Position numbers and translations under genes: made by a program. Under the pieces are notes generated by a model that was given only the letters and a program-made list of their open reading frames with translations, made no database searches and was not told the DNA's origin. A stretch of 64,000 nucleotides of DNA from Cenococcum geophilum 1.58 (taxonomy: Eukaryota > Ascomycota > Dothideomycetes > Gloniales > Gloniaceae). The DNA is taken from the NCBI GenBank assembly GCA_001692895.1, contig KV748186.1, forward strand, positions 983,785 to 1,047,784, written 5' to 3'. This document shows positions 664 through 49,829 of this stretch, piece after piece. Position 1 is the stretch's first letter, and every line of letters begins with the position of its first letter.

Positions 664-665
664 TA

Positions 666-11800: not shown

Positions 11801-13632
11801 GCGGATATTAAGTTTAGTAAAGATCTTTACCTAGCTTAGACGCGCAAGGGTCTTATTAATTAAAGGAATAGGATACTAATCCTTTTAAGTAATAGTATTT
11901 AGCTTCTAATAGTTAATGCAAAAGCAAAGGCCTCTATTAGGCTTTTTTATAAATAGGATAGGAGAAGTAAAAGGGGCTTAACTTGGCTCAATAAACCCTT
12001 TATCTAGGTTATTAATTAAGTACTACTTTATTGCTTTTAGTTTATCCGTTAATTATTAGTAAAGGGGGCTATAACCTAGCGAGTTATTGGCTTCTAATTA
12101 AATCTTATAATTGTATATCTGGTAAGGGGGTAACTTATCTAAAGCCGCCTTTAAGAATATATCCTTGTAATTTATATAAATAGTAAAAAGGAGGCGTTTA
12201 ACTAATTCCTTATCAGTCTCCTTAGCTAGCTCTTCCTCCCTATTATTAATAATTCGGTTAATCTTATATAGGCTCGTTATAAAGACCTTATTATCCTTCT
12301 AGTATATATTAAAGTAAAACGCTACCGCGCTAATTACGGCAATGTCTACGGCGGGGGGGTTATATAACAATAGGGGCATACGTAACTTTATATACTTCCG
12401 GGGTATTAGCATTATTATTACTCCTTTTAGCTCCTGTTGCATCTTTTAAAGGTTATCCCTTATATCCTATTAATACGTTCTTTTCTATACCGGTCAAATC
12501 TACGCGATTCGGACGTTGTCTACGTCACTATCTATCCTGCTTTTATACGTAGAGTTTTCTTTAAATATAGCGCTTCGGGAGAGTATCTTTATTAGTATAG
12601 AGTTCTTTCCAGCTTTACGGCGGGCGTCTTCTTAAGTAAAGGCTAGGTCACGGGCCCGGACATCCTACTAGTAGGTAGGGTCAGCCCTTATAGCTAGTGT
12701 CTTGCGGTCGGTTTGGATTTCCCTAATAAAAGAGGGTAACTTCGGTCTATCCTCCAGCCAAATAAACTGTCTTTATCGCACGTTTAGCCAAATATCAAAA
12801 TAGGATTTTTATTTTTATCTAAGGATTATATTATAGAACCCTAGGTCTAGGATACAAAAAGGGATACCATATTAGCGTTGTCTATTAAGAGCAATATATA
12901 ACTTTAAAACATAGGTAACCGGCTAACTAGCTTAGCCGTTATAGCCTTTTACCTAAACAGGCTTCTCTAGTTAAATAGCTTCTGCATTTAAAAATTTAGC
13001 AATATTATTTGCATAGGTAGTATTTATAAAGGCGAAGCTATTTGCTCTAGTATTAATAAGGGCAGTTATATTTACTCTATATCCATTTTAAGATACTATA
13101 TATAAAACGGTAAAATACTTTCCACCTATTAACTAACTAAAATTAATCTTTTTAAGATCAATAGGGTACCCTAGGGGGAAGTCTTTCCCTAGGGCTCTTC
13201 TTTTCCCAACTTATTAAACATTTCTCCTTCCTCTATTTCCTTAATATTACCTATATCCTTTAGCTCTAAGCAAGATAAGGTAAAGTAACCCTCCTTATTA
13301 TAGTTATAGTAAGTGGCCGAGGCAGGGTTAATTAGGGTATTGCGACGAATACTAGTTAAGGGTATAGTATATGGCTAGTTGGGCAAGGCCCGCCGGTGCA
13401 TAAATATAACCGCTTTTAGTATAAGAGCGGTCGTAGCTTATCTTCCTACTCTAGCTCCTATAGGTATAGCTAATAAGTTTTAATTATTCTAGGGTTACTT
13501 CTACTAATTAGGGCAGGTGTTAATTTACTTTAGTTCTAAATCTAGTAATAGGTAATAAGTTACAAGTCTATTATACGTTAGAAGGTCGTTTAAGGTTATA
13601 GCAATCTTCTCTTATAGCCGAATTATTAGCTT

Positions 13633-21936: not shown

Positions 21937-22083
21937 TATACCCTCCTATTAATTCCGGTTATTAGCGCAGCCACATCTATATAGCCTTACTTTCCCTTAA
22001 ATAGTAAAAATACTAAAACTTCCCCTATAAAAAGGCCGTATAAACGTAGCTACGCTAACAACCGGAATTAATAGGAGGGTATA
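21937..22083. mobile_element. Small foldback MITE (147 bp)
   Basis: Two arms of about 55 bp form a near-perfect inverted repeat. The left reads TATACCCTCCTATTAATTCC and the right is its complement ending GGGTATA. The mismatches between arms are transitions. The loop is about 35 bp. The outermost TA may be the target duplication. It sits just after the kinase pseudogene and could form a strong hairpin. No coding. Confidence 0.82.
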
Positions 22084-22149
22084 GAATCTCCGCCCTTATC
22101 TAGCCGCTAAGTCTTATAAGGCATAACGACTACAATTAATAGGTCTGCG

Positions 22150-22350
22150 CGTATGGGCCCTAAAACTAAAAATAAGACGCCATAAAGCACGGGCGCCTAG
22201 ATAAAAAGTGACGCTATAAAGCACGGGCGCTTAAATAGAAAGTGACCCTAAAGTATGGGCTCCGGCCTAAAAGTAATCTAAAGTTCAAGCTCCTAACTAT
22301 AAGAATTCTAAAGTATAAGTATCCGGGCTAAAAACAAGACGCCCTAAAAT
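22150..22350. repeat. 34-bp minisatellite
   Basis: About six degenerate tandem units of roughly 34 bp. The two best copies start at 22176 and 22210 (GACGCCATAAAGCACGGGCG and GACGCTATAAAGCACGGGCG); later units decay and shorten. The array ends within a few bases of the element C insertion point (AAATG, 22347-22351). Confidence 0.8.
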
Positions 22351-22351
22351 G

Positions 22352-22557
22352 TGTTACGAACGCTTTAAGTACAATGTTATGACTACTTGGAGAAGAGTCG
22401 GAAGAAGCTAGTTAGTTAATATAAGCACGGTCTAAGATGGAACCCGTAGAACTATATGACGAGGAATAGTAAGCAGAGTCACGTGATATAATCTATGTAA
22501 TCTGTGTATTCTGTAAGATCTGTAACAGAGTAAACAGAGTAGATAGAGCAGATAGAG
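22352..22557 (+). repeat. Element C 5' LTR, first part
   Basis: The first 206 bp of the 421-bp LTR, beginning TGTTACGAACGC. It ends with TAGAG (22553-22557), which was duplicated when element B inserted. The second part is 31023-31237. Confidence 0.92.
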
Positions 22558-22719
22558 TGTTACAGGACGGGGTAGTGGCTATAAGACGTATGTATTCGAG
22601 GAGTCTACAAGACGTTGCGCGATCGATCGTAAGGGTTGAGGGCGTAAGGAGGTGATATACCTACGCGTAGCTGATATAAGCTGTATGCGAGGTGTATGCG
22701 AGAGCACGGGGCTCTCCTA

Positions 22720-24833
22720 CCGTGCTTCATCGCGTAACGCCCGGGCCCGCGTGACGCCCACAAAACCAAAAATCGGCAACTTTTCAACACCCAATATCTC
22801 TACCAATATGGACCCTCTTGAGGCTGCGCTGGCATCATTGGAATCGCTAAGACCTAGAGAAAAACCTAACTACGCTGTAACTGCAAGAAAGTTTGGTATT
22901 AATCGCTCTACGCTATCACGGCGTCATAAAGGCGTTTAGGGTACCCATGCCACGAAGTGCGAGAATCAACGACTACTCAACATAATATAAGAGAAGGAGC
23001 TTATATAATATATTGATAAGCTTTACGCAAGAGGCCTACCACCTATAAGACAAATGATACGAAATTTCGTATTAGAAATAGGTGGTAAAGAACCTAACAA
23101 GAACTGGGTTAATCGATTAATTAAGCGACACGACATTGATCTTGTATCACGATGGACATCTGGCATAGACGCCTCCCGCAAACGAGCTGATTCAGCCTTT
23201 AAATACTCACTATATTTTAAGCTCTTACGGCAAAAATTTGAGCAATATAATATTGATCCACGGCATATATATAATATGGATAAGAAGGGCTTTTTAATTG
23301 GTATACTGTCCAAAATAAAAAGGATCTTCTCCCGACGTCGATATAAAGAGGGGGGCATTAAGCAGATTATATAGGATGGCAATTGCGAGTGGATTATAAC
23401 GATAGCTTATATCTACGCTGACGGAACTTCTCTCACACCTGCGCTAATTTATTAAGCTGCTTCTAGCAATATATAAGACACCTAGTTATAGGATTTTGAT
23501 CCTGTAAAGCATAAGACCTTTTTCTCCTTATCTCCCTCTAGATGGACAAACAATTAAATAGGGCTATTATAGCTTAAATAGGTGTTTAATCGCGAGATAA
23601 AAGCAAAGGTACGTTAATTTTATCGACTTCTAATACTAGATGGCCATGGATCGCATGTCATAATGGAATTTATTAAGTTTTGTAACGATAATAAGATCCT
23701 CCTAGCTATATATCCACCCCATTCAACCCATACGCTACAGCCTCTTGACGTTTGTATGTTCAAACCTCTCTCATCTGCGTACTCAGCTAAACTGGCCGAC
23801 TTTATGGATAGATGCTAAGGACTATCATTAATCACAAAAAGAGACTTTTTCTGTATGTTTAATAAGGCCTAGCAGACCTTATTTAAGTCTAAGACTATCC
23901 TTAAGGCCTTTAAAACGACTAGTTTATCACCATTTAATCCCCAAGTAATCCTTAATTAATTTAATGTTAATTAGAAGAACCGGCCATCTTTAAGTAAGAG
24001 TATAAGCTCAGTGCTTAGTGCTTTAGATTAGAGGAAGATTAAATGACTTTTACGTATAGCTGTCAATAATATATACAATAAAGAATCACGACAGCTTAGT
24101 TAGACGGTCCACTTAATCTCAGCACGTTGTACGCTCCTTTAGCATAAAAATAAGCGCCTCAAGGAAGCTCTTATTAATAAAAAGCGCCGTTAGCAGCGTA
24201 GCAAGCCTCTCCTACTTAAAGCGCCCCTAGAATATAATAGTAGTGCAGTCTTCTAGTCGCCAAACAAAGTTAAAGACGCGCGCGATTGTCAAGCTCAAAA
24301 AGAGGCCAACGAAAAGGCTCTACAGCTTTAAAAAGATAAGGAGACTAAGCGCAAGGAGGCTAAAAAGACTAAAAAGGCGCGTATGCTAGAGGAGAGGAAG
24401 CGTATAAGGGCTACTGCGAAGGAGATTTAATTGCAGAAGGAGCAGGTCAAGAAGGCTTAGCGCGAGGAGGTAAAGATCGCTCGGCAGGTTAATTAATAGC
24501 TAAAAAATGATCTTAAACAGGCCAAGAAATGCAAGAAGAAGGTTATTACACCTATAGCTAGTGATTAGGAGGATATTAATGTTGATTTATTATCTATTAA
24601 AGATATAGGGCCTCTACTAGGTAGGACCCGGCGCAGTAGGCAAATTAACCTCCCGCAGAGGTATCGCATATAGTTTATTATTGCTAATAGAGTCTCTAAG
24701 TTCTCCTAATTGCTACACCAAAAAATCTGATTAATTTATCATATATATGTGGCTGCAGAGCTTCAAAAGTTGATGGAGTTTTATCTGAAAATCGGGCGTC
24801 ACGTAGGCCCGGGTGTTACGCGATGAAATACGG
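22720..24833 (+). mobile_element. Fot1/pogo-type DNA transposon (2114 bp)
   Basis: A Tc1/mariner-superfamily element with 40-bp inverted ends starting CCGTGCTTCATCGCG and a TA target duplication (22718-22719 and 24834-24835). The ends differ at five positions, all transitions. The empty site CTCCTATGGAGG survives in the other LTR of element B (about 30983-30994), proving both boundaries. It carries a single transposase gene spanning almost its whole length. Structure is complete, but the gene is full of stops, so it cannot make its own transposase. It is the youngest proven layer of this nest. Confidence 0.96.
22808..24730 (+). pseudogene. Fot1-like transposase, DD35D, multiple stops
   Basis: 641 codons in one uninterrupted frame from ATG (22808) to TGA (24728-24730), without net frameshift, but with roughly 25-30 internal TAG/TAA codons, mostly at expected Gln or Trp positions, as RIP produces. 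The N-terminus is a helix-turn-helix (NYAVTARKFGINRSTLSRRH, residues about 18-41), followed by a CENP-B-like DNA-binding region (PPIRQMIRNF and NKNWVNRLIKRHDI, about 78-112). The catalytic triad is visible and intact: D158 in IYNMDKKGF, D278 in LILDGHGSH, D314 in LQPLDV. The last two are separated by 35 residues, as in Fot1. The C-terminal third is a Lys/Arg/Glu-rich coiled-coil-like tail. The family cuts at the terminal repeats and integrates at TA. Confidence 0.93.
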
Positions 24834-24866
24834 TATGGAGGCCCCTGCGGTGGGGTTCCGTAACAC

Positions 24867-24879
24867 TACCCCCCCTCCT
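24867..24879 (-). other. Polypurine tract of element B
   Basis: On the minus strand GGAGGGGGGGTAG lies directly against the LTR. It marks the plus-strand priming site and confirms the minus orientation of element B. Confidence 0.78.
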
Positions 24880-25097
24880 ATAGAGGCAGAGCTTCGGCGA
24901 CGCTGTGGTTACTATATATATATAGAAGGGACACTTAGGGTATAGAAAAGAAGAAAGGGGGGTATTGCTAAAGGCTTGAAATAATGTTATATAATAAGGC
25001 TTGGTATCTAAGAATCCGACCAATTAGATAACTTTAACCGCCGGTCGAAGTTCCTGGACATCTCAACGATATTCCGGTCATGTAATCGCACTTTACC

Positions 25098-25126
25098 GCA
25101 ATCTGACGGCAATCTGACGGCAATTT
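25098..25126. repeat. Short tandem repeat in element B 3' region
   Basis: The 11-bp unit AATCTGACGGC occurs twice in tandem, followed by a partial third copy (CAATTTGCC). It lies in the untranslated region of element B beside a block shared with element A. Confidence 0.5.
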
Positions 25127-28100
25127 GCCCCTATATAGTAATATATAACGGTTTAACTCTATAAGGGCTCCTATAGAGGATTAGGTATAAAATCTCTGCT
25201 TAGGCCCGGTTTCTGTAGGTTCGTATAGTAAAAGTCGCTAATTAGATCCTTTGCATTTTCGAAGTCTTCTTATAGTTGCCATTCTGGCTAATCTATGTTA
25301 AATCCTGTGTATATAGCTCTGTAGTAGAGCTGTCGTCCTCTGCCTTTGCTAAAGTATTTAGAGTTGATAATTTGTTTAACGGTCTACTCCTTATAGTTCT
25401 TGTCTTCGTTCTTATCTCAAATTAGTACTAGTGGGGGTTTAAGCTATATCTACCCCGGTAAGAGGTTAGGCTAGTAAAGGTATAGTAGCTATAGGTAAAA
25501 TATAGGCTATATCCCGTGGGTGGCTAGGGTAGGCAAAAGCTCTAGCTCGTATACGGCTCCCCTATTAATAACTCGTTTAATTAGATAGGGGCTGAGGTTC
25601 TTATAATTAAGTGACTTTATAGGCCTCTGCATAGAGATATTGTGTGCATCTAGCTATACCTAGTCGCCAACACGCATCTCCGGTGGTGGCGTTCTATAAT
25701 AGTCGGCGAAGTAGGCCTACTTTACTTAAGCCCAGGCCATTTCTCCCTTATAGTAGTTAAGTAGGTTTTTTATACGGTCTATATACTGGTCGGTAAGTAG
25801 CATCTTAAGGCGTTTTCTATATAGCAGTTTTTTATTAATAGGTTCTAGTGGTTCTATGCTAGATTAGGGGTAATATTCCTTATTCGCGAAGAACGGGGTA
25901 AGTCCTATAGTAGTTAAGACGTAGTTATTCGCTACGAATTTACCTAGTAGGAGGTAATCTACCCAGTTATCTTAACTATAGGCGACTACCTATTATAGGT
26001 ACGCTTTTATGCTAGCGTTAGCGTTTTCTGGTTACCTAGTAGTTTTATAGTGAAAGGATATAGATATCTTAACGGAGATGCCAAGGCGTTAGCAGATTCG
26101 TCTCTATATATTAGAGCCAAACTATATACCTCGGTCGGACGTAATCGAGTTAGGTAACCTATATAATCGGTAGATTTCGCGGAGGAAGGCGTTAGTAACG
26201 TTGCTAACGGCTACGCCTTTGGTTGGGACGTAGTGGCGCTCTTTTATAAGTCGGTATATTATTATAAAGATGTTCTTATAGGTACGGCCATATCGCTTAT
26301 AGGGTGGTAGGTTAATAACGAAATCTATGGCGATATCTACCCATCGTCGTATAGGTACTAGTAGAGGGTGTAGTAGTCCTTAGTACTTTATATTAAAGGC
26401 CTTAGCGCGCTTATAACCGTAGTAGGCGCCTATAAAGCGTTTAACTAAGTCTATTATTTTAGGCTAGAAGTAGTATTGGCTAAGAAGCTTATAGGTTCCT
26501 CCTCTGCCTAAATGGCCGCTTAATTAGAGGTTATAGGCCATTTAGATTAGTTGCTGTTATAGATTTTCTAAGTTAGGGACGAATAGATAGCCTCTATAAT
26601 AGAGCCTATTCTCTTTTACTTTTAAGGCTGCTATATTAATCTAGCCTAAGCTTTAAAGTTTAGTTAGCAGCGTATAGGCGCTAGCGGTCTTTGCGGCAAT
26701 AAGTTAATATAGTAATGGGTCAACAGAGGTGTTATATGCCGTAGTAATAAGCTTGTTAATTTTGGGAGGTAATTCTAGTTCTATGGTGTGGAGCTAAGGT
26801 ACAGTTAGCTCTATTATAGGTAGCATACCTAGGGCCAAATTCCGTGCTTTTAGGATCGTCTATTATTGGAACTGGTTATAAAGGTCATCTTTAGACTAAG
26901 GAAGGTCTTATAAGCGGCGTGTTAGGCTATTAGGCTTAGTACCTTATACTCCTAGCCTATATACGATTTTAAAGTTAAAACTAGAGAGGAACTCGTTCCA
27001 GTATGCTTAGCGTCGGTTTAGCTGTTTTATAGTTATAAAGTACTTAAGGTTACGATAATCCGTAAGGACTTTAGTTGGCTAGTTAGGTTCTGCTAAGAAG
27101 AGTTCTAATTAGAATTCCTTAAACGCTTATATAATTGCGAGAAGTTCCTTATTATAGATTTTGTAGTTATATTCTTATAGTATAAGCTTAGATAAATAGA
27201 ATGCAACTAGGTGGAGGAAACCGTTATTACCTATCTAAGAGAGGACGCCTGCATTAACGTGGTCTAAGGAGTTAGTTTTAAGATAGAGTTATCGTCCTGG
27301 TATAAAGTGAGCTAGGATAGGTGCTTTAGTAAAAGCATCTTTAAGGTCTTAAAACGCCTTCTCGCATTTAGGCGTCCAGATAAAACGTAAATATGTTTTT
27401 CTTCCTTTTACGGAAAGGCCCTTTGTTCGCATTATTGCTATAAGTAGTGCTATAACACCCAAGAAGTTATATATAAATTTTCAATAGAAGTTAGTGAAAC
27501 TAAGGAAAGCTTATACGTCTTTAATGCAGTTAGGGGTTTGCTATTTAGTAATTATGTATACCTTTTTAGGGTCTATATAGACACCCTTAGTAGTAATAAT
27601 TAATCTAAGGTATTTTACTTCTGTAACTAAGAATTCGCACTTCTTTAAATTAATATAAAGTCCTACGTCCCTAAGGCGCTATAGGACCTTTTAAACGTGC
27701 TTAGTATACTTAAAAGGGTTATTACTATAAATAAGTATATTATTTAGGTACGCAGAGCAGAAGTTGTTAAGGTAGTCCTGTAAGGCGTTATTAATATAGC
27801 TTTAGAAGCTGCCTGGGCCGTTATATACGCCAAAGGGCATAACGGTATATTTGAATTGGCTAAAGCGCGATACAAATGCGGTTTTCCATTCGTTACCTTC
27901 TTGTATTTAGAGGTAGTTAAAGGCGGCGATAATATTAAGCTTAGTATAGATTTTGGCTTAGCTAAGCCGCTTAAGAGTCTCACGTATAAGCGGTATAGGG
28001 TATCAGTTCTTAATCGTAATAGCGTTAAGTCCTCTATAGTTAATGTAAAATTAAATACCTCCTCCTAGCTTCTTAGTAAGGAGGATAGGGGCGGCTGCTA

Positions 28101-30825
28101 GGGACATGCTAGGGCGAATAAACCCTTTGTTAAGGTGTTCGTCAATATACTTTTTAATAACTAGAAGTTCGTCTTTTAATATTAGATAGGGTCTCTTATA
28201 GGGTGGCGTTTTTCCTTATTTAATATTAATGGCATAGTTATTAGGTTAATGTAGGGGGAGTATATCTACGCTCTTTTGTAAGCACACGTTAATAAAGTTA
28301 TAGTACCTCTTAGGGAGGAGCTTGCGGAGTTCCTTATTAGTAAGTCCTTTTTTAAGCTTTATAAACTTCTTAAAGTCTAAAGGTAAAAGTCCATAGAGTT
28401 CTGCGGGGGCATTATTTTCTAAAAGGTCGACTATATCTATCCTGTTACTATAGAGGACGTAGTCCTATTCTTTATTAAGCTTATATAGTCGTAATTAGGA
28501 GGCTGCGGTAATGGTTTAGCCTTTCCTACGTGCTATGCGGTAGAAGGCCGCAGCACTTACGTAGTGGTAGTTAGTCGTAGGTAGGGTAATAAGGGGTTCC
28601 TTAGGTTAGTATCCTGGGGAATAGATAGAGGCGGCTAGGCCATATCCTAGGTAGGTCTCTCTACAGTATTTAAAGTTAAAGGTTACTTCTCTCTTTTTCC
28701 AGTTAATGGCGGGGTTGTATTATTTAAGCTAGTTCATTTCAAGGATAATAGGGTAGTTAGTAAGTAGTATAATATAGGCCCAGAGTTCTTCCTAGTGCCC
28801 ATTTATATCTAGGTGAAGTTATGCCATATAGGTAATCTTCTATACGGTATAACTACCGTTAGTGAGTTATAGGGCGCGGGCTTTAATAAGGGGTAAGGTA
28901 GGTAGGTTATAAGTACACACAAATTAAGTATCTATAAATTTATTAGTAGCTCCGCAATTAATTATAGAACGGCTTTTATATTATTTTTTAGCAGTAGTTC
29001 CTATTACAGGTAAAACTATCTGTTTCCGTCTATTTATCTTTACTAAGTTATCTATTAAGCAGGCCGATATATAGATCCCCTTATTATTAGGGCGTCCTAA
29101 CCTACAACTTAGGGCTAGGACTTAGCGTTTTCTATTTCCGTATCTAACTCTACCGCTGTTACTACGTCTTCGTCTTATACGGTAGTGGTATATAGCAACG
29201 TATTTAGTGTTTAAGGTACTAGGTTAAGTATTAGGCGGCAGCTACTAAACCTAACCATTAGGCAGTTTAGGCTATAGCTATAACAGCCTTCTTAACGACA
29301 TCTATAGCAACGCTTTAGCTTTTAAAGTAGCTCGCGTTCTCTATCTAGTAGCTTCTACGGGAAGGTTGGTATGGAAAGGTCGATATTAGGACTAGTAGTA
29401 TTACTTAGGGTAGTGGGCGTCAGTGGTTTAGTAGGTCCGGAGGGCTTCTATAGAGAGGTCTTCAGGCAGGGGTTTATAGTAGCGATCTAATTTAGTCGTC
29501 GTTTAATCTTCTGTATAGCTGCTACCATATTATAAATATTATTATAGTTATAGCTGGCGGCTGCGTAACTAAGGTAATAAGTGACTTTTTTAAGGAGATC
29601 TTCCTAGTCTTTAGTATTATCTCGGGTAAGGGCTCTAGTATATTCCTAGAATTTAACATAGAACTTATTAAATAATTTAGTAGGGCTTATCTTTAGGGCA
29701 CGTAGTTTAGCTTAGTTAGTGGCTAGTAGGTTATAGTTACGGTATATTAGGTCGAGATCGTTAAGGACTTCTTAATAGGACTACCACTTTTAGGGGCTAT
29801 TAGTCTCCCATTAGGCGAAGAGTCTGTTAAATAGTATACCCTTTATTCGCCCAATAATATAGCCAATCTTAATATCTTCCGTAGGAAAAAGGCAGGCGCT
29901 CTAAGTTAGTTTCTCGCGGATTTATATCTTCTAGTGGCTATATTCTTTGCGGTCTTCTTAAAAAACTAGGGGATTAGGGTAACGTATATTAGACCCTATA
30001 GTGGCAGCTTAGGTTTGGTCGTTATAGCTTTTGTCATCGCTTTAGTAGGGGTTTCTATTAGGTAAGGCTGCTCGGCGCTAACCCTCCGTTAAGCGTTAAG
30101 TAGGTAAAGTTACCAGGGGCGTAGAGACTTAAGTGGCGTTATATACAGTAGAGAGGTGTCTAGCGTTATTACGAATATACTCATTAAGCTAAGATTATAG
30201 GTATTTAATTATACCTTCTCTTTCAGTAACCGTAGCAATAAGTATAATCTCAGCCTTCTTTAACTGTTGGACGTCGCGTTTAGATACGCAGAGGTCGTCT
30301 TTAGTTTCTTAACGCGTATTATCGGTAAGCGCCTCACAAGCTTATAGGTCTTAGATAATATCGCGATCTTAAGCAGCACGCATCTCGGCTTATGTAAGCT
30401 TTAGGTAGTAGTTCTATAGAAGGCGGTAGTATTTATCGGGTTCTCATGCTACCATTTTTATAAACATCTCGGCGTCTCATATTTCGATTTTAATAGGTAG
30501 TAGCCCTTCCGCTTACTTGTCCGTAGTTATATAGTCAATAAAAAATAAGACATTGTCGGTATCCATCTCCTTAGGGGTTAAGGCTAGGGCTAATAAATCA
30601 AATTCTCCTGGGATTAATTGGCGTCGTAGGTTAAGTATAGGTATTAGATTATTCTTTAGGTTTGACATAGTGGCTAGTAAGGAATATCATCTTACTATCG
30701 TAGGTTCCTTAGAAGTATAAAGTGAGGTAACTTATAGGTACGCTGCTTCTGGCAGCGCCTATAGTATTATAGAGACGTAGAATTGGTCGTAGGCTAGGTG
30801 TTAGTGGTAAAAAGGCGCAACGTAA

Positions 30826-31017
30826 TATCACGGGATGGGGCAGTGGCTACAAGACGTATGTATTCAAGGAGTCTACAAGACGTTACGCGATCGATCGTAA
30901 GGGTCGAGGGCGTAAGGAGGTGATATACCTACGCGTAGCTGACATAAGCTGTACGCGAGGTGTACGTAAGAGCACGGGGCTCTCCTATGGAGGCCCCTGC
31001 GGTGGGGTTCCGTAACA
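30826..31017 (-). repeat. Element B LTR, intact copy (5' LTR in element orientation)
   Basis: 192 bp, ending TTCCGTAACA against the TAGAG duplication. It holds the uninterrupted TA where the other copy received Fot1. It is CpG-rich (includes GCGATCGATCG) and less RIP-mutated than the interior of the element. Confidence 0.93.
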
Positions 31018-31022
31018 TAGAG

Positions 31023-31237
31023 TAACGACTTTCATAGGAGTACGGTTATGTATTTAAGGACCCTTAGTCCCTACCTAGATAGTTCCTTCCTTATAGTAAT
31101 TCTTAGAATATAATTAGAGTTAATCTATTAGGTAACTACTCCACTAGTTATTATTATGTTGTTAACTTACTTATAATACCTATATACCTAGCCTATTAAT
31201 AAGTCTACCGTAGTTTCTACTATAAGGCTCCGTTATA
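31023..31237 (+). repeat. Element C 5' LTR, second part
   Basis: 215 bp completing the 421-bp LTR begun at 22352. It is colinear with 38635-38849 and ends CCGTTATA where the 3' LTR ends CCGTTACA. Confidence 0.92.
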
Positions 31238-34200
31238 TAATTACTACCTTAGTTATAGTTTTAATAAGTTAAACAGTATGCCACCAAAAGCAGCTACTAT
31301 AACGCCATTAACGGCGGCAACTATGTTAGGATTAGGTAACGACACTAGTATAGCAAACACTAACTTATAATAGCCTGTAATAGTAGGATAGTTATAAATA
31401 ATAGTTAATTAGTTAACGGGAGATAATACGGCACTTAAAAATAGGATTAATAGGATAGGAGTAGTAAAGGTTAAGTTACTATTAATTAAAAGATTCTCGG
31501 GAGAAAAATTAAAGCTTAAGGGATTTCTTACGCAAATACACTTTAAGGTTATGTAAGAAGGAGTAAAGCTAGTAATAATTATAGATTAAGTAGCATATAC
31601 AGGATTGTTCTTATTAGGAAGAGTACTTAAATAGTTTAAGCCTTACCTTATAGAGATATAAGTAAATGGAATAATAATAATAAATTAAGAAGTACGGTTT
31701 ATATTTTTAAGCTAGAATAGATTTGTAAAGCGACTTATATAAATATTTAGGGACCTAAAAGTAATAACTATAGCGGAAAGGAAGCTTTAGAACCTAATAT
31801 AATAAACTTTAGCAATTAAATATATAATATAATTCTAAACGCTAGCTATATAACTTAAGTGGAACAATAAGGCGCTTATGGCATAGTATAAATAGGGACT
31901 TAAGACTAAAGTCCAGAATGTAATTATTTTAATAGAAGATGCGGACACCCTAAGGGAATTAATAGATTAAGCAATTAAGATTAATAATAAGATCTTCTAA
32001 AGGGAATAGGCTAAGAGGGGCTAGGATAGAGTTCTATAATTATATAAGACGTAAAGCACGCAATAACTAAAGCTAAATTAGAAATTATGGTATAGCGCAG
32101 AGCTAATAGACCTAAGTAGTACTAAAGAAACCTATAAAAGATAGAGTAAGAAACTATAGAAACCTAGAGGTTAAGGATTAAGCAATTATAGGACTAAGGA
32201 GTATAGGCTAAATTAAGGATCTTAGTAGTAGAAGACGTTTGAGCGAACTCTATAGTAAAAATAATAGTTTAAAGATAGAGCTTATATAAATTGCGGAAAA
32301 TAGGGTTATTTTACTAGAGATTATAGAAGTGGTTAGAGTTATTACGCAGTAAAGGGAACTAGACTAGTAGTATATAACACATATATATAGAGGAATAATA
32401 GTGCGCTATAAGGAACAAAAGAGTATTTAATTAGAAGTTTCGCGTTTTATTATAATAACGTATACTAAATTTATAAAGACGCTAAGTATAGTATAAGCTA
32501 TTAGCTATAAGAGCTAAAGTTAAGAGAACTTAAAGGAACTAAAGAGTTAAATAAGGAATAAGATTAACTCTATAAGCTAGATTAAGATATTATAGTAATA
32601 TACGGATAAAAATTAGTAATAATAATAATAGAGTTAGAGTACTTATTAATTAACAGCAATAAGGATAGTAAAGGGACTAACTAGGGGTATCTAAACCTTA
32701 ATAACGTAATAGAAGCAGAGACTAAGACCGCTATAGAGTAAGGTTTAGTAATAGGTATTATAACACTATTAGATACGGCATCTATTACTTTATAAGATAG
32801 AAGGAGCAATATCTAGAGATAATTAAGTAAGTAAACAACTGCTAGTGCTAGCTTACCACTTAATAAAGGCAAAAGGCTAAAGGCTTAAGATTCTTAAGAT
32901 AAGATAAGAAATAACTAAGATTCTTAAAATAAAATAAGGTATGCTTATAGACCTATAATAGACAATAACCGATAGAGTAGAGTAGTAGCTTAGTTTAAAA
33001 ATATATGAATAAGCTTAGGATAAGTGTTCCTAACAGTATAAGACTTTTAAGACGAGATAAGTAAGATCTAGGACTCTTAAGACGAGATAAGGACACTAGT
33101 AAAGCCTAATTAGACTAAGGCTGAAGCTAAGCTTAAGTTAGAAGCAAGCTTAGAATTAAAAAATCTAAGGGATTAAAAATTCGGAGTATAAATTAGAATA
33201 CCTATAAGTAAGAAGCAAGGAGCTTCTTTATAGATTAGAGAATCTATAATATAAATAGTAGTTAAATTAGGAGACAGATATATAGACCTAGAGGACTTAC
33301 TAGTTAAATAAGATATTTAGACTAAAGATTAAGAGTTTAATACTAAGATTAAGAAGTAAGAAAACTTTAAGGATCCACTTATAAAACGCGAAAAGAAAGA
33401 AACTATAGAGAAGTTTAGAGTAAGAATTACCTTATAGTAAGAATAGAAACTAGATAAAAGATCTAGTATATTAGGATATATAAGGGACAGAGCACCCATA
33501 TAAAGAATTACTAATAGGCCGAGAGTAGGCATATTAAGAGCTAAATAGCTTACCGAATTAGAAAGTAAAGAGGATTTAGGGATTTCTACTAGGTTCAAAG
33601 AACGATATATAAAGGGCTATTATAACGTAGTAATAAGAAGATACTTCCTTATAAACAAGCCGTATATACTCTAGCAGCTATACTAAAAGTAGTATAAACA
33701 GCAACATAATAATAAGTGGGAAGATTTCTATATATAGTTAGACGAAAAAGTTATCTAAGACCACTTAATTACGGAAAAGCGATAAACTATATTAAGGGAG
33801 TATTAATTATAATATTAAAGGATCTAGAGGAACGATTAAAGGACTAGAAAAGTAAGAAACGCGTCTTAATACCTATAAATAAAGTTGTAATATTTAGATT
33901 AGTATAATAAAGGTTTAAACTTAAAGATAAAAATAAGTTAAGAGTTAACCTAAAGCACCTAGCGCACTATACGCTATTATGGATTGCATATATAGATAAT
34001 ATATATAAAATACACAAAAATCCAAAAGAAAAGAATCGGAAATACCCTATAAGGATATACTAGATAATAGATAAACAATAGTATAGGAATACTAAGTATA
34101 TACACGGCTAGCATTTAGCAGAAGTCTAAGAGGAAGGAGATTTAATACTTTAACCAGGAAAATTCCTTACGGAAGAATACTTAGATAGATAATAATAGTA

Positions 34201-34574
34201 GGAATATCTAAAGAACACCTATCTATAGTATATTAAAGATAAAAAACGAACTATGTATTAGCTAAAGAATAAGCTAAGTATAATAGGATTAAGCAGCTAA
34301 TAGTTAGGAAAAGTAGAGGCCTATAGGACTAGAGGGAGCTAGTAGTAGAGCCTTAGACCCTTAAAGGAATTTAAGGACGATACCTAAATCTAAGAATCTA
34401 ATAGTAAGATTAATAGTTTAAAGTATTAGTAGATAGTAGAGCAATAAGGAACCATATTTTACTAATAGCAGTTAAAAGGATAGGGCTACTATACAGGCAG
34501 AAAGAGCACTTTTACCTATTAATAACAATTTTAGGAGATCTAATAGCCTATAGAGGAGGTATTATTAATCTTAA

Positions 34575-34640
34575 AANAGGACNNATTTAGNTAACNATTA
34601 AAGGNANATANATTAAGATNTCTTTTAATATANTACNATT
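34575..34640. other. Cluster of ambiguous bases in element C
   Basis: About a dozen N calls are scattered singly here, with further clusters at 34930-35010 and 37300-37370. Isolated Ns inside a multi-copy element suggest unresolved consensus positions, not a gap. Reading of element C is uncertain at those places. Confidence 0.8.
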
Positions 34641-37600
34641 AGGGAATAATAAGGCAGTATTAGGAATACCTTAGTTACAGGAATATAATCTAAAAATTAA
34701 TTAGGTTATAGGTTAGGTTAATATTAGAGATATATAACAACATAAGATGTAATAATAAACTAAGTTAGTATAGTACTAAGTTAGAGTAATATATAAAGAG
34801 ACCAATTAAGAATTAAGCTATATACTAAAAAGATACCATAAGTATAGTAAAAAGCTATAGTTACTAGAGAGTAAAAAGCTATTAGATTATATAGTATAGG
34901 ACTATAAGATAGAGTTAGAACTAGGAATAAGTNTAAGGTTCTNNCTAACNTATAAGNTNACNNAANANNAGTTANNAGCACTTAANGAGTTTATCTAANA
35001 NAANNTNTAAAAGGGATATATTAGACTATTATAGTTATTAGCAGGATATCTAGTACTATTTATACCAAAGAAGAATAGGAAACTTAGGCTATATATTAAC
35101 TATAGATAGTTAAACAGCATTACTAGAAAGGATAGGTATCCTTTACCCTTAATTAGCGAAATCTAAGATAGGATTAGTAATGCGTAAATCTTTATAAAGA
35201 TAGATCTAAGATAGGCGTACTATTAGATTAGAATTAAGGAAGGTAATAAATAAAAGGCAGCCTTTAGGTCAAAGGAAGGACTATATAAACTATTAGTTAT
35301 ATAATTTGGGCTTATAAATATACTAGCAATATTTTAGAAGCGTATTAATAATATATTAAGAGAATATTTAGATGAATTTGTTATAGTATACCTTAACAAT
35401 ATTATTATCTACTTAATAAATAAGGAAGAATATAGAGAACACGTTAAATGGGTTTTAAAGAGACTATAAGAAGAATAGATGCTAGTAGTAATTAAGAAAT
35501 GCGAGTTCTTTACTAAGAAAACCAATTTTATTAGATTTATTATTAAACTAGGCTAACTTAGTATAGATCTAAAGAAGATTAAGGCTATAGTAAATTAGTA
35601 AGAACTAGAGAATATAATATAGTTAAGGTTATTCCTAGGGTTCTGCAATTACTATAGAAGGTTTATAGCTTAATAGTTAAAAAAAATATTAAGCCACTTA
35701 CGAGATTAATAAAGAAGGAAGAACTATAGGTATAGGGAGAGGAATAAAAGGAACTATTTAAGAAGATTAAATAGTTATTTACCTAGGAACCAGTCCTTAA
35801 AATCTACTAACTATAGTTAGAGATAGTAGTTAAAACGGATATATTAGACTATGCACTAAAAGCGTACTTTCTATAGAAATATTAAGATGGATGGCACCTA
35901 GTGGTATACTATAGTTAAAAAAAATAACACTACTGGAACTAAACTATAACATCTATAATAAGGAGTTATTAGGTATAGTTATAGTATTAAAGGAATAGAG
36001 ATTATTCTTATAAGGTATAGAGAAACTATTTATAGTTAAAACGGATTATAAGAACCTAACGGGGTTCCTAATAATAAAAGAACTTAATTATAGATAGGTT
36101 AGATAGGCGGAAATGCTTACGGAATACTATTTTAAAATTTAGTATATTAAGGGTATAGAGAATACACAAGTAAATGCTTTAAGTAGAAAGACTAAACTAT
36201 AAAATAATAAAAAGCCATTAGGGGCTTTATTGCGAAAAGATATAGATAGACTAATTAGATATAATTACCCAAAGATTATAGCAATATAAGAAGAGAAGAT
36301 CTATAAATTACTAGAGAGTAACTAGATATAAAAGATCCTAGACGCATAAATAAAGGATTTAGACTTAGAATAGTATAAAAATTAAAAAGTAATGTATATA
36401 CTAAGAACTATTATAAAGGAGTTTATTAAGTTATTTTATAAAGGATTAACTTAAGGATATAATGGAGCTATAGGCTTAGTGTTAAGACTTTAAGAAGAGT
36501 ATATTATTAATGGAATTTAGGAACTAGCTAGGTAAGTTATAAAAGAATATCTAGATTGCTAAAGGAATAAATTAATAAGGTATAAACTATATAAAGAACT
36601 ACAACCTATTAAAATACCAAAGAGACTATAGGAGGTTATATTATAGGACTTTATTATTAAGTTACTAAAGTTAAGAGACCCTATTACCAGATAAGATTAT
36701 AATGTAATCTTAGTAATAATAGACAAGCTTATAAAGTGGGGGTACTTTATAGCATATACAGAAGAAATATTAGCAGAAGATGTCGCTAGAATTTATATTA
36801 AAGAAGTATTTGTAAAATACGGAGCACTAGGCAAAATTATATTAGATAGAGATTTAAGATTTATAGTAGCATTCTAGGAAGTATTCTTAGCAGAGTAAGG
36901 AGTTAAAGTAGTAACTTCTACCGCATATTATCTATAGACAGATAGTTAAACGGAAAGATTAAATTAGACACTAGAATAGTATCTAAGGCACTATATTAAT
37001 TATACACAAAATAATTAGGTATCGCTATTACTAGTTATATAGTTTGTATATAATATAACACTATAAAAGGGAATAGGTATATTACTATTTAAGGCGAATT
37101 ACGGATATAAGCTAAGGACTTTACTATTGCTATAATAAGTAAAGAAGATAAGTAGTATAGCTAAGTAAAGAATAAAGAGTTTAATGGACCTTTATATAGA
37201 CCTTATAGAAACAGCTAAGGTAGTATAGCAAAGAATAAAAAAGTACTACGATGCTAAGAGATCTAAGGGACTAGATCTTAAGGAGGGAGATAAAGTATAG
37301 NTACTATATAAAAATTTTAANAGTTAANNANTAAGTAAGAANTTNGACNATNTTANACTAGNACCTTTNNAAATTATATAAAGGATTTTACTGGTTATAT
37401 TTAAGTTAAACCTACTAGCTAAAATAAAGATCTACCCTATATAATATATTGCAATACTAGAGCTAGTATATAGGAATATTAAGCCACTGGTCTATAAGGC
37501 AGATATATATAGAGGATAAGAAGAAGATAAATAGTAAGTTTTAAGAGTTGTTAGTTATAAGGATGTAGATAATAAAATATAGTATAAAGTAAAGTGGATA

Positions 37601-38412
37601 GGCTATAATAAGACTACCTAGAAGCTATTAAAAAATTTAAAAAAACGCTATAGGAAAGGTATAGGAGTATTAAAAGAAAAAAGGTTAGGCAATATTAATA
37701 AAGAGGAATTACTAAAGAATAAGTTACCTAAGGGGGACCTAGAAAAAACAACTACTAAACTACTTAGAGTTATTTCCTTCTTTATTAGAAGAGAATCCGT
37801 TTTTTTATTACTAAGTTCCTATAGATCTTATTTTATAAGCTTCTACTCCTTAAAATAAACTTTCTCGCGAACTTTCTTAAGATAAATTAGCTAAGTAGAC
37901 GTAGCAAGATAAGAATTAAGAGTACGTTGTTAAGTATTGGCAGCCTCTTTTTTAGCGTTATATAAATAATAAAGTTCCACTAAAGCGACGGATAACTTAT
38001 TATTAAGCTTTATAGCAGTAAATTAAATATAAAACCCTATAGTAAATTACTTAGGGAACTTAAAGACTATTAAGAGTTATAGGACGCGTATACTTAGTAT
38101 TAGAAATTAAGCGAACATCGTAAGATAATTAAATATTTACTTTAGTATACTTTAAGTAAGAAGAGGGTTGCTAAGATAAAGGATTTACTAACGTAACGTA
38201 AACTAACCCCTCTTTTATATAACAAGAATACGGAGATGGTATTACTTTACTAAGTAATAGTATGGAAGAAACTATACGCGTATAATAAAGAGTTAAGGAA
38301 GAAAAAGAGGCTTTAGGTATTATAAGTAACGATATTAACTAAATTAATTAGATGGATATTATACCTCTAGTAAACAACTTAAAGATACTAGGTATCTTTA
38401 AGGACAAAGATA

Positions 38413-38428
38413 AAGAGGAGGGAGATGG
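38413..38428 (+). other. Polypurine tract of element C
   Basis: A purine-rich run AGAGGAGGGAGATGG lies directly upstream of the 3' LTR. This fits plus-strand orientation. Confidence 0.7.
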
Positions 38429-38849
38429 TGTTATAAACGCTTTAAGTATAATATTATAACTACTTAAAGAAGAGTTAGAAGAAGCTAATTAGTTAATATA
38501 AATATGGTCTAAGATAGAACCTATAGAACTATATAACAATGAATAGTAAGCAGAGTTATATAATATAATCTGTGTAATCTATATAATCTGCGAGATCTGT
38601 AATAGAGTAAATAGAGTAGATAGAGTAGATAGAGTAATAACTTTTATAGGAGTACGGTTATGTATTTAAGGACCCTTAGTCCCTACCTAGATAGTTCCTT
38701 TCTTATAGTAATTCTTAGAATATAATTAGAGTTAATCTATTAGGTAACTACTCCACTAGTTATTATTACGTTATTAACTTACTTGTAATACCTATACACC
38801 TAGCCTATTAACGAGTCTACCGTAGTTCCTGCTACAAGGCTCCGTTACA
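38429..38849 (+). repeat. Element C 3' LTR
   Basis: 421 bp, TGTTATAAACGC to CTCCGTTACA, followed by the AAATG duplication. It is the uninterrupted version of the LTR split by element B and shows the empty site (GATAGAGTAATAAC). Confidence 0.93.
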
Positions 38850-38854
38850 AAATG

Positions 38855-41800
38855 TAATGCTCTTTAGTTAGGCCACTAAGGTTTATTATAGGGGACTAAC
38901 TAAATATTATCTAAAGCCGACTATATCTAGTTTAAGCATTAAGTAAAGAAGTAAAATAAAATAAAACCGTATCCTAAAAGTATGCTAGCCGTATGCGTAT
39001 ACATATATATCGCGGCCCTCGTTCGTTTATATAGATACTCTTCGCCGCTATTATAATAAAATTAATAACTCTCCTTTAGTATATCTTAACTACTTATATA
39101 TTTATCTACCTAAGTTTCTACTTCTATTTTTATTTTTATAATAGAAAACAGAAAGTAATACAACAAGCTTTAGTACTAGTAGCCCTCCTCTTATTGCCCT
39201 AATTTATTTCTACTATTGTTTTAGTTATTATTAATGCATTTCGGGATTATATATACTGTATATTAAACTATAATTTATTTTTAGGCCAGAAATAAAACTA
39301 ATATCCTATTATAGCTAACGCAAGATTATCGCTTATTATTTTATACGGGTTTATAACTATTCCTCTAATTATTAAAGTAATTTATAAAGTAAATTTATAG
39401 AGGGGTAAAGCTAATAAATATAGTATACGTCGCTAAACAATATTCTTTTAAAAGTTGATAGTGGTAAGCCGATTTTTACGGGGGTTAGGGCAGTAGTGTT
39501 CTTATTAAAGATAGCACTCTTTAAACTATAGGTTCTCCCTATATACTCTCCTAATCTCTCCCTCTAACCTATATCTATAGTTTAATTGCTAAAGTAGGCT
39601 ATATATCCCTTCTACAGAGTTCCTACTTTTAGTTTATATTAGAGGTTGGCCTTATTAGCCTTAAAAAGATCTTTATTACCTATATATATTTAATTCTCCT
39701 TAGAAGCTGTATTAGAAAGTAGCCTAATTTTATAAACTATTAAGGCTCCTACTGCTAAGAATTGCTTAATTTATTTACTATAGAGCATAACAACCCTATT
39801 TAAAGGCTTACTATAATAGTTCTTATAAACGCTATTATAGTACTCCCTATCCTAGCGTATATAGTACTAGTAGCTACTTATAAGGACTATAATATCCCTT
39901 TTATAACGGTAAACTTCTCCTTATAGTATATTAAATTTATTACTAACTAGCTAAAGTTTTAAATTGCCTATATTAACTGGAGAAGACCCTAGTAAATTAT
40001 AGCGCGAACACCTTCTATTACCCTAACTAGTTTATTACCCTTTTATCCCTCCTACTATAAAGGGTTAGATAATAGCCAAACTGCTTTTATAGGCCCTTTG
40101 CGGTTTTCTTACTCTTTCTTAAAAAATAGTATATATTAAGATTTTTATTACGCGCGAGATAGGACAGAAACAATTGCAATATAAGGAGATTAGTATACAC
40201 TAGGCTTAACGCCGCTTAATTAGGACTTTTAGTATCTTTAGTTATTAATGTCTTACTAAATCTATATATACTATTTCTAACGGCTTTCTTATATCTAATG
40301 TGTTGGTTATATATTAAGATATAACAGTATAATTATTTTAGCCTTACCTACTTTTGTTATTAAAATGGATTTAGTATATAGCCTCTAATAAAAATATACG
40401 GTACTAAATATATATTTATTTAGGGCTTACGCCTTATATAGACTTATAGGCGCCTTCTATAGGTTCTTATAATCCTCGCCTATATCCCTTATCTATTATC
40501 TACTTTACCTACATTCTTTAATCCTTACTAACTAAACGGGTATATAGAAGAGCCCTATAAAAGTCACGTTAGATTAACTTTAGGAACGCCTAAAAGCTTA
40601 GGTTTTTTTATATACACGTTATTATAACTATTGCTACTAGCCTTGCCTTAAAAATATAGGACAATTAATTATTATAGTGCGGCTATCTAAAACCTGTCCT
40701 AAGCTACAGAAACAGTACATTGCCCATATTAGTAGGTAATTAGAAAAAAAGAATTTCTTTATAATTCCCACTCTTAGATATATTAATTCTATCTTGCTAT
40801 ATAAAGTAATATAAAACTATCCTAGCTACTATTAAGTTAATTTCGTAATACACCTTAACTACGTTACTTAAATTTTAGCTTACTAGATGCCTTAATTAAT
40901 AGGCGCCTTAGCTAAATCGCACGGCCGCTCTAATTTAATAATATCTTCTTCGTCTGTATTAACTTAGGATTAGTTAGAGTTAAACTTAGCTAGGCTTTCC
41001 TAAGGAATACTTTAATATGCTAAAGGTAATTAATAGTCAATATACCGATTTTTATCCCCCTAGTTAAACGCCTAGTTAGTTAATTATATAAGGTAGCATC
41101 TTCTACGTCTAGGGTATAGGCGTTATAGTCTAAGAAAGTTTAGGGGGCTTCTTATAAAGATAAATATACACATTTTTCCTAAACAACTATATAGAGATAA
41201 GGAGGCTTTATAATAGAGTAAGGGGGATTTATAAGGAAGTAAGGGAGCCTTATAAGTAAGCGAGGGAGTAAAAGAGCTATATAAAGAAGTTAGTAAAAAC
41301 GGCTTAGCTGGCAGATATATATATAAAGTTAAGCCGTTTAAGAAACTATATTCTAAATCTATTAACTAAGATTTAGATTTTATTTATAGAATATATTCTA
41401 AAAACAAAATTAATAAATTTAGAAACTGGGATATAAATATATATTTATTATAATTTAGGTTAAGTAGGAATATACGGCGAATAATTATAAAGTAAAATAG
41501 TATTATATTATTTAATATCTAATAAATATTATATCTTGCTAGCGTAAAATTATATATCTCCTCCTCCGTTATTTCTCTCTCTTTTATATTTTAGGCTCTT
41601 TCCTATACCTATAGGATAAACTCCATAGATTTTGTCTAAGTAACTTTATAACTTACGAGAATTTTAGGAGGTATACTTATATACCAGACAGTCTGCTAGC
41701 CCCTTAGGTAACTTATTTATATACTAATTAATATATACGTTAAAGTAACGCGGCTTTAGAAATTGTTAATATTCTAATTAGCTAAAGCAAAATGGGCAGC

Positions 41801-42640
41801 GCCTAGTAATAGCGATAATTCCGTAAGTATATACGAGGCCGCAGAATATAGGAGGGGTTTAAAGGTAGCCAGAATAATAATTAGCCTAATTTAAGTCTAA
41901 TTCTATTTATAGAGAACATTTATAGCAGAAATATACGCTTGTTAGTAAAGTTAGCTTATATAGAACGCCATAGTCCTAGAAAAGGTGTATAACTTTATTA
42001 GAATCCTATTAAAAAGATAAGTAAACGCCTTCCTGTACTAAGCTAAAGTCTTACCTTAGGAGGCACTTTTTGCACTATAGATAGCAACCTATAATATCTA
42101 GCTTAGCCTTTAGAAAATAAACGGCATATTATACGCTATTTGCCATTTCCACTAACGGTTAAATAACTTCACTAAGGGTATAATGCCAATTACGATAGAA
42201 GCTGTAAATAACTTCATATCTTAAGGGCTTATATTTTAGTAGACATTTAAGGTTTTAAGGTAATTCGATATCCCTAAGCTTAGCTTTAAAAGTTTAAGTA
42301 CTAGTAACCTCTATAGGAACTAAGTTTAACTATAAAAGGCTTAAAATTTGCTTTTCTTATCCTCTTGCCAATATAACTAGCTTAGTAATAGCTTATCTAA
42401 TAGCTTCTATTAGTTTTAAAATATTAGTATAGAACTGCATAAATAATATATTGCCTTACTTTTCCACGCGTTTGCTTCTTTCCTATAGGCTCTATAATTA
42501 TCCTTTAGTAAGGCCGTTAATATACGCTTATAGCACCCGCGTTTTGCGAGCTCTTTAATTATATCTTATAGCACTACTGGTTTTATTACAGAGTTGGCCG
42601 CTACACTCCCTATAGGGTATATTGGTTATAGTATAGGAAC
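38855..42640 (-). pseudogene. Unidentified degraded coding-like region
   Basis: After element C about 450 bp are featureless. From about 42620 down to 39300 the minus strand shows long stretches in which one frame is readable between RIP-type stops, for example VIKPVVL and IIKELAKRGCYKRILTALL near 42600-42520, DYNAYTLDVEDATLYN near 41135-41090, and YIGRTYSLKSAIFNKNTT near 39545-39490. Together they suggest one or more former genes of large size, up to about 1000 codons. I recognise no domain. It could be a large transposon protein or a host gene. The frames are not shown to be one gene. Confidence 0.35.
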
Positions 42641-42649
42641 CTTATCTAT

Positions 42650-49561: not shown

Positions 49562-49829
49562 TGTTCGTACTAACTTAATAGTATAAGTAAGTCGTATCCA
49601 CGGGCACGAAATACATGTAGTATCGTATGCTTGTTTAGATGGTAACTGTCAATTATATAAAGCAGACTACGTAGTCTATATACTAATGCACCTCCCCCCT
49701 AATTAGTTAGTGCTTTATAAGTGCACTAGACGTATAAGCGAGTGGTTGGTGCACTAAACGCGTAAACGCGTACCTGGTATACCAAACGCGTAAGCACGCG
49801 TTTAGTACAACAGGTACTATAATTATACA
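49562..49829 (-). repeat. Element F LTR (3' LTR in element orientation)
   Basis: 268 bp from TGTTCGTACTAAC to AATTATACA. It contains CpG-rich repeated AACGCGTAA motifs in its right third. It matches 55724-55991 with scattered transitions. Confidence 0.93.

Follow-up and report, generated by a model that had tools for sequence, protein, structure and literature searches.

When transposable elements come to lie inside one another, does the mutation load of each layer record how long ago it arrived? The question is raised by a stack of insertions in the window, by which is meant the whole 64,000-nucleotide stretch of Cenococcum geophilum DNA analysed here. The original prediction placed a Fot1-like transposon in an LTR of a Gypsy element (B), and B in the 5' LTR of a second Gypsy element (C). 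It regarded the order C, then B, then Fot1 as proven, and it read the stack as a relative clock for RIP, each younger layer being less mutated than the one around it. The order can be confirmed from the junctions; the clock has to be judged together with a pattern of scars that C elements share.

C is a Gypsy-type element on the plus strand (22352-38849), bounded as predicted by two matching copies of AAATG (22347-22351 and 38850-38854). Its 5' LTR is in two parts. The outer (left) part, 22352-22557, gives a gap-free alignment to 38429-38634, and the inner (right) part, 31023-31237, gives another to 38635-38849, so that together they cover the plus-strand 3' LTR (38429-38849), which is the uninterrupted counterpart of the B site. 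Between the parts lies B, a Gypsy-type element on the minus strand (22558-31017) flanked by matching TAGAG copies (22553-22557 and 31018-31022). The left LTR of B is itself interrupted by the Fot1/pogo-like DNA transposon, on the plus strand (22720-24833) between two TA dinucleotides (22718-22719 and 24834-24835). The outer part of this LTR (22558-22719, minus) aligns to 30826-30987, its last 30 bp (24836-24865, minus) are identical to 30988-31017, and the right LTR of B (30826-31017, minus) carries the uninterrupted TA. When rejoined, the halves thus align end to end with their partners: C matches its 3' LTR at 375 of 421 positions with no gaps, the rest being 44 transitions and 2 transversions, and B matches its right LTR at 178 of 192, again with no gaps, the 14 differences all being transitions. 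The same LTR pairs come up in a self-BLAST of the window at E values of 3e-9 to 2e-91, so their pairing is not due to chance. The target duplications, the gap-free halves and the uninterrupted counterparts together establish that C inserted first, B next and Fot1 last.

All three elements are dead, and no stop-free frame of 150 aa is found across the whole nest. B and C share with Ty3/Gypsy elements the 5-bp duplications and LTRs starting with TGTTAC, with LTRs of 192 bp in B and 421 bp in C. Both may also have had reverse transcriptase ahead of integrase: the order of the pieces fits, but the reverse transcriptase match is weak in B and both matches are weak in C. They differ from intact Ty3/Gypsy elements in being heavily broken, and the domains of C are only weakly recognisable. 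In the internal region of B (24866-30825, minus), an integrase-like piece at 26125-26379 on the minus strand matches Ty3 Gag-Pol (4.1e-9), preceded by an RVT_1 piece at 27544-27678, also on the minus strand, which is weak and below the cut-off (E 0.008). A purine tract, in the minus reading, adjoins the left LTR. Together with the integrase-like piece it places B on the minus strand, so the LTR split by the Fot1-like element is the 3' LTR of B and the right one its 5' LTR. The internal region of C (31238-38428, plus) shows heavy C-to-T mutation. Its best matches are to reverse transcriptase/ribonuclease H at 35338-35466 (E 0.24) and to Ty3 Gag-Pol at 36695-36874 (E 0.31), both weak, and a polypurine stretch stands just before 38429. 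In Pfam, six of the seven B and C pieces submitted had no match, and those from C had none at all. Rfam at gathering thresholds likewise had no match anywhere in the window.

The Fot1-like element is 2114 bp long, with terminal inverted repeats whose first and last 40 bp are 88% alike inversely. It contains transposase pieces that score above the curated Pfam cut-offs (HTH_Tnp_Tc5, 1.4e-5; DDE_1, 7.3e-11). It thus shares with the Fot1/pogo elements of fungi the TA duplication, a length of about 2.1 kb, the inverted ends, a Tc5-type DNA-binding domain and DDE_1 pieces. It differs from them in its broken frame, the longest stop-free stretch of 127 aa marking a decayed copy, and in having only one close relative found in the genome (92-93%).

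C was also said to lie against a minisatellite. Tandem units of 34 and 30 bp are indeed present in a few degenerate copies at 22176-22333, on the left side of C only, but they are part of a dispersed repeat that resumes at 38855. This outermost repeat has a left piece at 22099-22346 (left end approximate) and a right piece at 38855-42717 (right end approximate); matches of 86-92% identity, in two or more pieces, cover positions 1-3863 of the right-flank query. The prediction of an uninterrupted copy in the same window for every layer holds for Fot1 and B, which have their partner LTRs. For C, self-BLAST of the window (E up to 1e-8) revealed no second copy of the target, and the empty site is found elsewhere in the genome. 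When the 600 bases of joined flanks were searched against 177.2 Mb of genome, 13 of the 16 matches ran across the junction as a single alignment, and seven of these began at query positions 48-50; of the other three, two are the window's own halves and one is a further fragment. Since C sits inside a fourth, dispersed repeat, the nest has at least four levels.

What, then, do the mutations record? C LTRs are high-copy, with 5602 first-look candidates in the genome (the C interior has 3593), and 20 C elements were probed at both ends (10 further listed elements lie outside this sample). Nine of them have matching 5-bp duplications and make up, with the window copy, a set of 10 LTR pairs. Ten others were left out with the C LTR absent or partial at one or both ends, and one (L075) with an incomplete 5' alignment and unmatched flanks. 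The window's C partner LTRs and their kin differ almost only by transitions (437 against 9 transversions over the 10 pairs), most often in a CpA context (240 of 437). Speaking against an edge effect, 13 of 20 LTRs still have their own partner as the nearest sequence. Polarity was scored as retention of C/G, with the C-to-T direction assumed without an outgroup. On this score, the 5' LTR retains C/G at 217 sites against 52 in the left half of the LTR, and at 63 against 105 in the right half (Fisher p 7e-20 for the difference between halves). Leaving out the window pair gives 188/50 and 60/95 (p 7e-16). Retention correlates negatively with position in the LTR in all 10 pairs (label swap, 1/1024), and in the last tenth the 3' LTR retains C/G at 42 of 47 sites. 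The window pair follows suit: in the outer part, 22352-22557, the 5' LTR retains C/G at 27 of 30 transition differences, and over 31023-31237 the 3' LTR does so at 9 of 14. Thus, in each of the 10 usable elements, the part of an LTR that faces outward mostly retains C/G and the part that faces inward is T/A, the exceptions being confined to the right halves of one reversed pair (L079, 9 vs 7) and one tied pair (L107, 11 each). In B the polarity is not clear (4 pairs, 30 sites, correlation -0.17), and its LTRs are only 192 bp long and little diverged.

Divergence between copies is a cruder measure. Among 22 sequences including the window copy, picked by LTR similarity, transitions at the C 3' end are low in the outer 200 bp; 26 of the 29 other top matches to the window 3' LTR adjoin the 3' internal end of C, and are therefore 3' LTRs. 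At the C 5' end, four sequences show no outward fall, the values over the outer 200 bp being 0.123 and 0.115. For the right end of B, five copies give transitions of 7-14% internally and 1.5-2.6% within the LTR. These profiles are mixed and carry no weight as support. Judging from the LTR pairs, the balance tips towards a RIP that weakens over some 200-300 bp as the outer boundary of a C element is approached, leaving mirror-image scars on the two partners.

A model for the whole locus can be proposed on this basis. Its insertions are shown by the junctions: C landed in a dispersed repeat that was already there, B in the 5' LTR of C, and the Fot1/pogo-like element in the 3' LTR of B. RIP (repeat-induced point mutation) would then have acted on each copy after its insertion to produce C-to-T changes. 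The repeats of this large, repeat-rich genome carry CpA-favoured C-to-T scars like those of ascomycetes with RIP. The load would depend mainly on the family of the element, on the supply of close relatives as partners and on how far a site lies from the outer edge. The homology-sensing step would sum identity across a few hundred base pairs; near the end of a duplicated block there would be less mutation, because matching DNA is present on one side only, and the outward part of an LTR would be spared as the inward part is mutated. We consider this reading, in which four or more levels of dead elements bear RIP-type scars whose load depends on family, partners and edge distance under an edge-sensitive search for homology, to be quite likely.

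Its most serious competitor keeps the same geometry. Mutation or heterochromatin spreading outward from the internal region, rather than weaker pairing at the edge, could have hit the inner LTR parts, since every LTR borders with its inner side on an internal region of heavy mutation, and leakage of RIP into flanks is reported (PMC7296669). High-copy LTRs should, however, be targets in their own right. This objection does not decide between the two models, and we rate outward spreading as possible, though clearly the less probable of the two.

The clock fares worse. If C, B and Fot1 differed through unequal exposure times, the load should fall with each younger layer. This is what (CA+TG)/(AC+GT) indicates (0.33, 0.45 and 1.00 for C, B and Fot1), as does CpA o/e (0.32, 0.42 and 0.71), and C has 46 LTR differences in 421 positions against 14 in 192 for B. 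The order is nonetheless broken by the product index TA/AT (1.63, 1.84 and 1.20) and by the composite RIP index (1.30, 1.39 and 0.20), and the LTR divergences of C and B do not differ significantly (Fisher p 0.19). The right flank, although older than C, is mutated about like it ((CA+TG)/(AC+GT) 0.36 vs 0.33; GC 0.29 vs 0.28). In two reverse nests, with C inside B, the younger C has a lower GC than its older host both times (0.334 vs 0.371 and 0.289 vs 0.368), CpA o/e in C and host being 0.31 vs 0.44 in one nest and 0.47 vs 0.42 in the other. Transition divergence between copies is close, at 10.2% for B and 11.4-11.8% for C, although transversion divergence differs. For B this comparison used five of seven other LTR loci (L004 and L007 have no B interior beside the LTR) and dropped two of four further pieces with fewer than 600 aligned sites; for C, it covered 21 of 26 3'-LTR loci. 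Transversions, which RIP does not make, do favour the clock's order, pointing to a greater age of the C copies than of the B copies. There is also the strong position effect within a single element. Finally, the Fot1-like element is short of partners: with a single close relative found, its light mutation may reflect the lack of a RIP partner.

The claim that younger layers are less mutated is therefore contradicted on several counts, and unequal exposure is an improbable account of the differences. On the indices, the reverse nests and the between-copy divergence, RIP was rejected as a clock across families. Its load is a poor clock because it also depends on family, on the number of close relatives and on distance from the outer edge, and layers of different families cannot then be ranked by age. 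Within one family there is a hint that the idea holds. Both hosts fall below both guests in CpA o/e in B as in C (n=2 each), and GC is lower in B hosts and overlapping in C. The stretches compared differ in part, and L020, one of the four nests, was judged by adjacency alone. The nests are too few to rely on.

Two further accounts concern the gradient alone. Deamination during reverse transcription, of the APOBEC type, typically leaves gradients and C-to-T or G-to-A changes, which would suit the scars without any chromosomal RIP. Yet the strands are roughly balanced: summed over pairs, mutated sites number 128 C and 152 G in the 3' LTR, and 85 C and 72 G in the 5' LTR. Partner LTRs are also normally identical at the start, because both are copied from one template. 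Strand-biased editing was rejected on the balanced counts and is very unlikely. Selection on the outer parts, for example on a promoter in the outer 5' LTR, would agree with retention being strongest in the 5' LTR's left half, but it is hardly credible and was rejected. Promoter selection should limit retention to the 5' LTR, yet the 3' LTR also keeps C/G at its outer right end (42 of 47 sites in the last tenth), and the window copy is dead, with no stop-free frame of 150 aa across the nest.

The preferred reading, of RIP weakening towards the edges, can be set against known systems. In Zymoseptoria tritici (Mycosphaerella graminicola), PMC4522978 describes 78 putative nested LTR retrotransposon clusters, which share with this locus stacked elements, target duplications and a RIP-like process. 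It cautions that LTR ages may be inflated by RIP, and includes one element with a mutated interior and identical LTRs. By comparison with the clusters as described there, each of the three inserted layers here has an uninterrupted counterpart, and where two LTRs differ is shown to depend on position. In Neurospora crassa constructs of perfect and interspersed homology, mutations lie near the repeat centre and homology is integrated over several hundred bp (PMC4858203). Unlike those artificial repeats, the insertions here are natural, and the partner LTR of the same element serves as an internal control. De novo RIP mutations in Z. tritici are likewise uneven along LTR elements, but they are reported to be most frequent at the distal ends (PMC10294615), whereas here the outermost part of each C LTR is the least mutated; the two fit together uneasily. 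No report of mirror-image LTR scars was found in the open-licence literature searched, which included PMC5816826, PMC10787394, PMC7296669, PMC12543289, PMC10294615, PMC4522978 and PMC4858203.

The nest itself is a clean but ordinary example. For dating in a genome with RIP, its lesson is that insertions of different families cannot be ranked safely by a RIP index or by LTR divergence, nesting order and transversions being the safer guides. Since RIP may fade towards element edges, LTR divergence would reflect position as well as time; if so, dating by LTR divergence measures edge geometry in part, and partner LTRs amount to a natural experiment on how RIP recognises where homology stops. Being identical at birth and unlike only in their outward side, paired LTRs lend themselves to a simple test, across the genome, of the distance over which homology sensing extends inward from a repeat's edge.

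As defined, RIP belongs to the sexual phase and requires the methyltransferase, properties that sequence does not show; its action here is a probable one. In the genome, L069 and L070 are long DNA_methylase frames, and a short, broken match (L072) accompanies them. One of the long frames resembles the enzyme of 9baq/9bap (7e-164) and the other is a second DNA_methylase; the two are putative RID and DIM-2 enzymes.

All three insertions of the nest, with their duplicated target sites, proved exact to the base, and the two split LTRs realign without gaps, all as the original prediction had it. The Fot1/pogo-like transposon (22720-24833) sits in an LTR of B (22558-31017), which is itself inserted into the 5' LTR of C (22352-38849), B and C being Gypsy-type LTR retrotransposons with LTRs of 192 and 421 bp, respectively. 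The Fot1-like element has inverted ends of 40 bp and retains parts of a Tc5-type DNA-binding domain and of a DDE_1 transposase. B lies on the minus strand and keeps a Ty3-like integrase piece (4.1e-9), and C lies on the plus strand, with protein pieces weakly matching Ty3 Gag-Pol (E 0.31) and reverse transcriptase/ribonuclease H (E 0.24). No frame that overlaps 22300-38900 runs 150 aa without a stop, so the three layers all appear dead. Single N letters are scattered and form clusters at 34577-34637, 34933-35007, 37301-37370 and 51680-51722, the first three inside C. The nest is genuine and of an ordinary kind; nested clusters have been described both in Z. tritici and in other fungi (PMC4522978).

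Self-comparison of the window found no second copy of the C target. The joined C flanks have 16 matches across the genome, 13 of which span the junction in a single alignment, the rest being the window's own two halves and one additional fragment. The target of C was thus an older dispersed repeat, the fourth and outermost level, whose right part extends to about 42717 and which contains the degenerate short tandem units at 22176-22333. Near about 41988, adjoining matches lie 228-244 bases apart in ten other places, with no such spacing in the window, which suggests a deletion in the window copy. Immediately left of the repeat's start there is a 52-nt inverted repeat (87%; 21937-21988 and 22032-22083).

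The mirror-image scars on the C LTRs are the part worth pursuing. In the window pair, the 5' copy retains C/G at 27 of 30 transition differences in the left half; in the right half it is the 3' copy that does so, at 9 of 14. Twenty other C elements, selected for resemblance in the internal region, were probed at their two ends, and nine of them gave a complete pair of LTRs flanked by matching 5-bp duplications. Over the resulting ten pairs, C/G is kept in the 5' LTR by 217:52 in left halves and in the 3' LTR by 105:63 in right halves (p 7e-20). All ten are concordant on the left; on the right, one (L079) runs in the opposite direction and another (L107) is tied. By tenths, the 5' LTR retains C/G at 34/41 differences at its left end and 5/47 at its right. 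The correlation with position is negative in every pair, its pooled value is the most extreme among 1024 label swaps, and the gradient is present in CpA, CpC and CpG contexts and weaker in CpT. Needing no assumed direction of change, a further comparison shows that 26 of 29 other top matches to the window C 3' LTR are 3' LTRs, these being the matches returned as loci out of 39 other full-length matches listed. Of the 20 paired LTRs, 13 are closest to their own partner and 7 to the same end of another element; mean identity is 0.894 between partners, 0.827 and 0.824 for same ends across elements, and 0.813 for opposite ends. The short B LTRs (four pairs, 30 sites, correlation -0.17) neither confirm nor exclude a gradient, and a between-copy profile of the C 5' end, from four sequences, did not display the fall toward the edge.

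Partner LTRs are identical at the start, and the differences between those of C therefore arose after insertion. RIP would have made them, weakening toward the end of the duplicated block. In the best explanation, which we hold likely, the RIP scars of this multi-level nest are set largely by family, partner number and distance from the outer edge; that RIP declines toward the outer boundary of C elements, leaving mirror-image scars on the two LTRs, is the reading toward which we lean. Outward spread from the C internal region is a live alternative cause of the gradient. Weakening of RIP at the edge agrees with N. crassa constructs, in which mutations are reported around the centre of compound repeats, with homology integrated over several hundred bp (PMC4858203). 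The sparing of the outer C LTR is in real tension with Z. tritici, where a de novo RIP peak is reported at the ends of LTR elements (PMC10294615); LTRs may be hot overall, with their outermost part cooler.

RIP load had also been proposed as a clock, falling from C to B to Fot1. From C internal through B internal to Fot1, the substrate measures alone take the predicted order, with (CA+TG)/(AC+GT) at 0.33, 0.45 and 1.00 and CpA o/e at 0.32, 0.42 and 0.71. TA/AT (1.63, 1.84, 1.20) and the composite index (1.30, 1.39, 0.20) are out of order, and LTR divergence is 46/421 in C and 14/192 in B, not a significant difference (p 0.19). Insertions occur in both orders, C lying inside B at L011/L113 (duplication TCTAG) and L019/L114 (GTTTA). 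In these two reverse nests GC is 0.334 and 0.289 in the younger C, against 0.371 and 0.368 in the older B, so that low GC goes with family rather than age; CpA o/e is 0.47 vs 0.42 in the first and 0.31 vs 0.44 in the second. Within each family the data hint at ageing, with CpA o/e at 0.42 and 0.44 in B hosts, 0.46 (L020, classed as a nest by adjacency alone) and 0.49-0.59 (window) in B guests, 0.28 (window) and 0.30 (L020) in C hosts, and 0.47 and 0.31 in C guests. In B, GC sets the hosts apart from the guests; in C it does not, the L020 host being higher (0.311) than the L019 guest (0.289). Across families the clock is unsupported, and we regard it as improbable.

The genome comprises 177,193,698 bases in 162 contigs, and the window is 983785-1047784 of contig C11. 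Every layer has relatives elsewhere in it: a first-look search gave 1505 candidates matching the B LTR, 5602 matching the C LTR and 38 matching the Fot1-like element. About 40 were scored per search, so these counts are not copy numbers. It also contains two long cytosine methyltransferase frames, of the sort that RIP would need, which are candidates for RID and DIM-2. Between the window's B and five other copies (L002, L003, L005, L006, L008) there are 764 transitions (10.2%) and no transversions in 7488 sites; two more B pieces contribute another 166 transitions, with 1 transversion, in 1612 sites. The five copies, compared with 24866-30825 of the window, mark a recent burst with nearly all divergence RIP-like. 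Relative to the window's C, 21 other copies differ by 11.4% transitions, and their transversions total 512 in 31014 sites; 15 carry 25-42 transversions each, part of which sit in a variable stretch that may be misaligned. The six with the fewest have 22 over 8849 sites and 11.8% transitions, a selection that biases the C figure downward; against 0/7488 in B, Fisher p is 2e-6. Transversions thus agree with C copies being older than B copies, the transition loads being close.

A single relative of the Fot1-like element exceeds 80% identity in a match longer than 100 bases, other long matches reaching at most 73%. Across 2114 sites the two differ by 162 transitions and 5 transversions, and since the window copy retains C/G at 119 of the 162, it was probably mutated too, but less. 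Inside this close relative (L040, contig C13, about 839494-839777) are 283 extra bases that start with ATTTA, with another ATTTA after them; by eye they are CpA-rich, unlike RIP-scarred DNA.

Elsewhere in the window, two long near-palindromes at 256-665 and 56123-56491 align with themselves in reverse complement over 432 and 379 bases, respectively, at about 82%, and are possibly foldback elements. Four blocks of 12030-13483 are repeated in 48640-56908 at 83-88% identity; the window has two copies of this further dispersed element.
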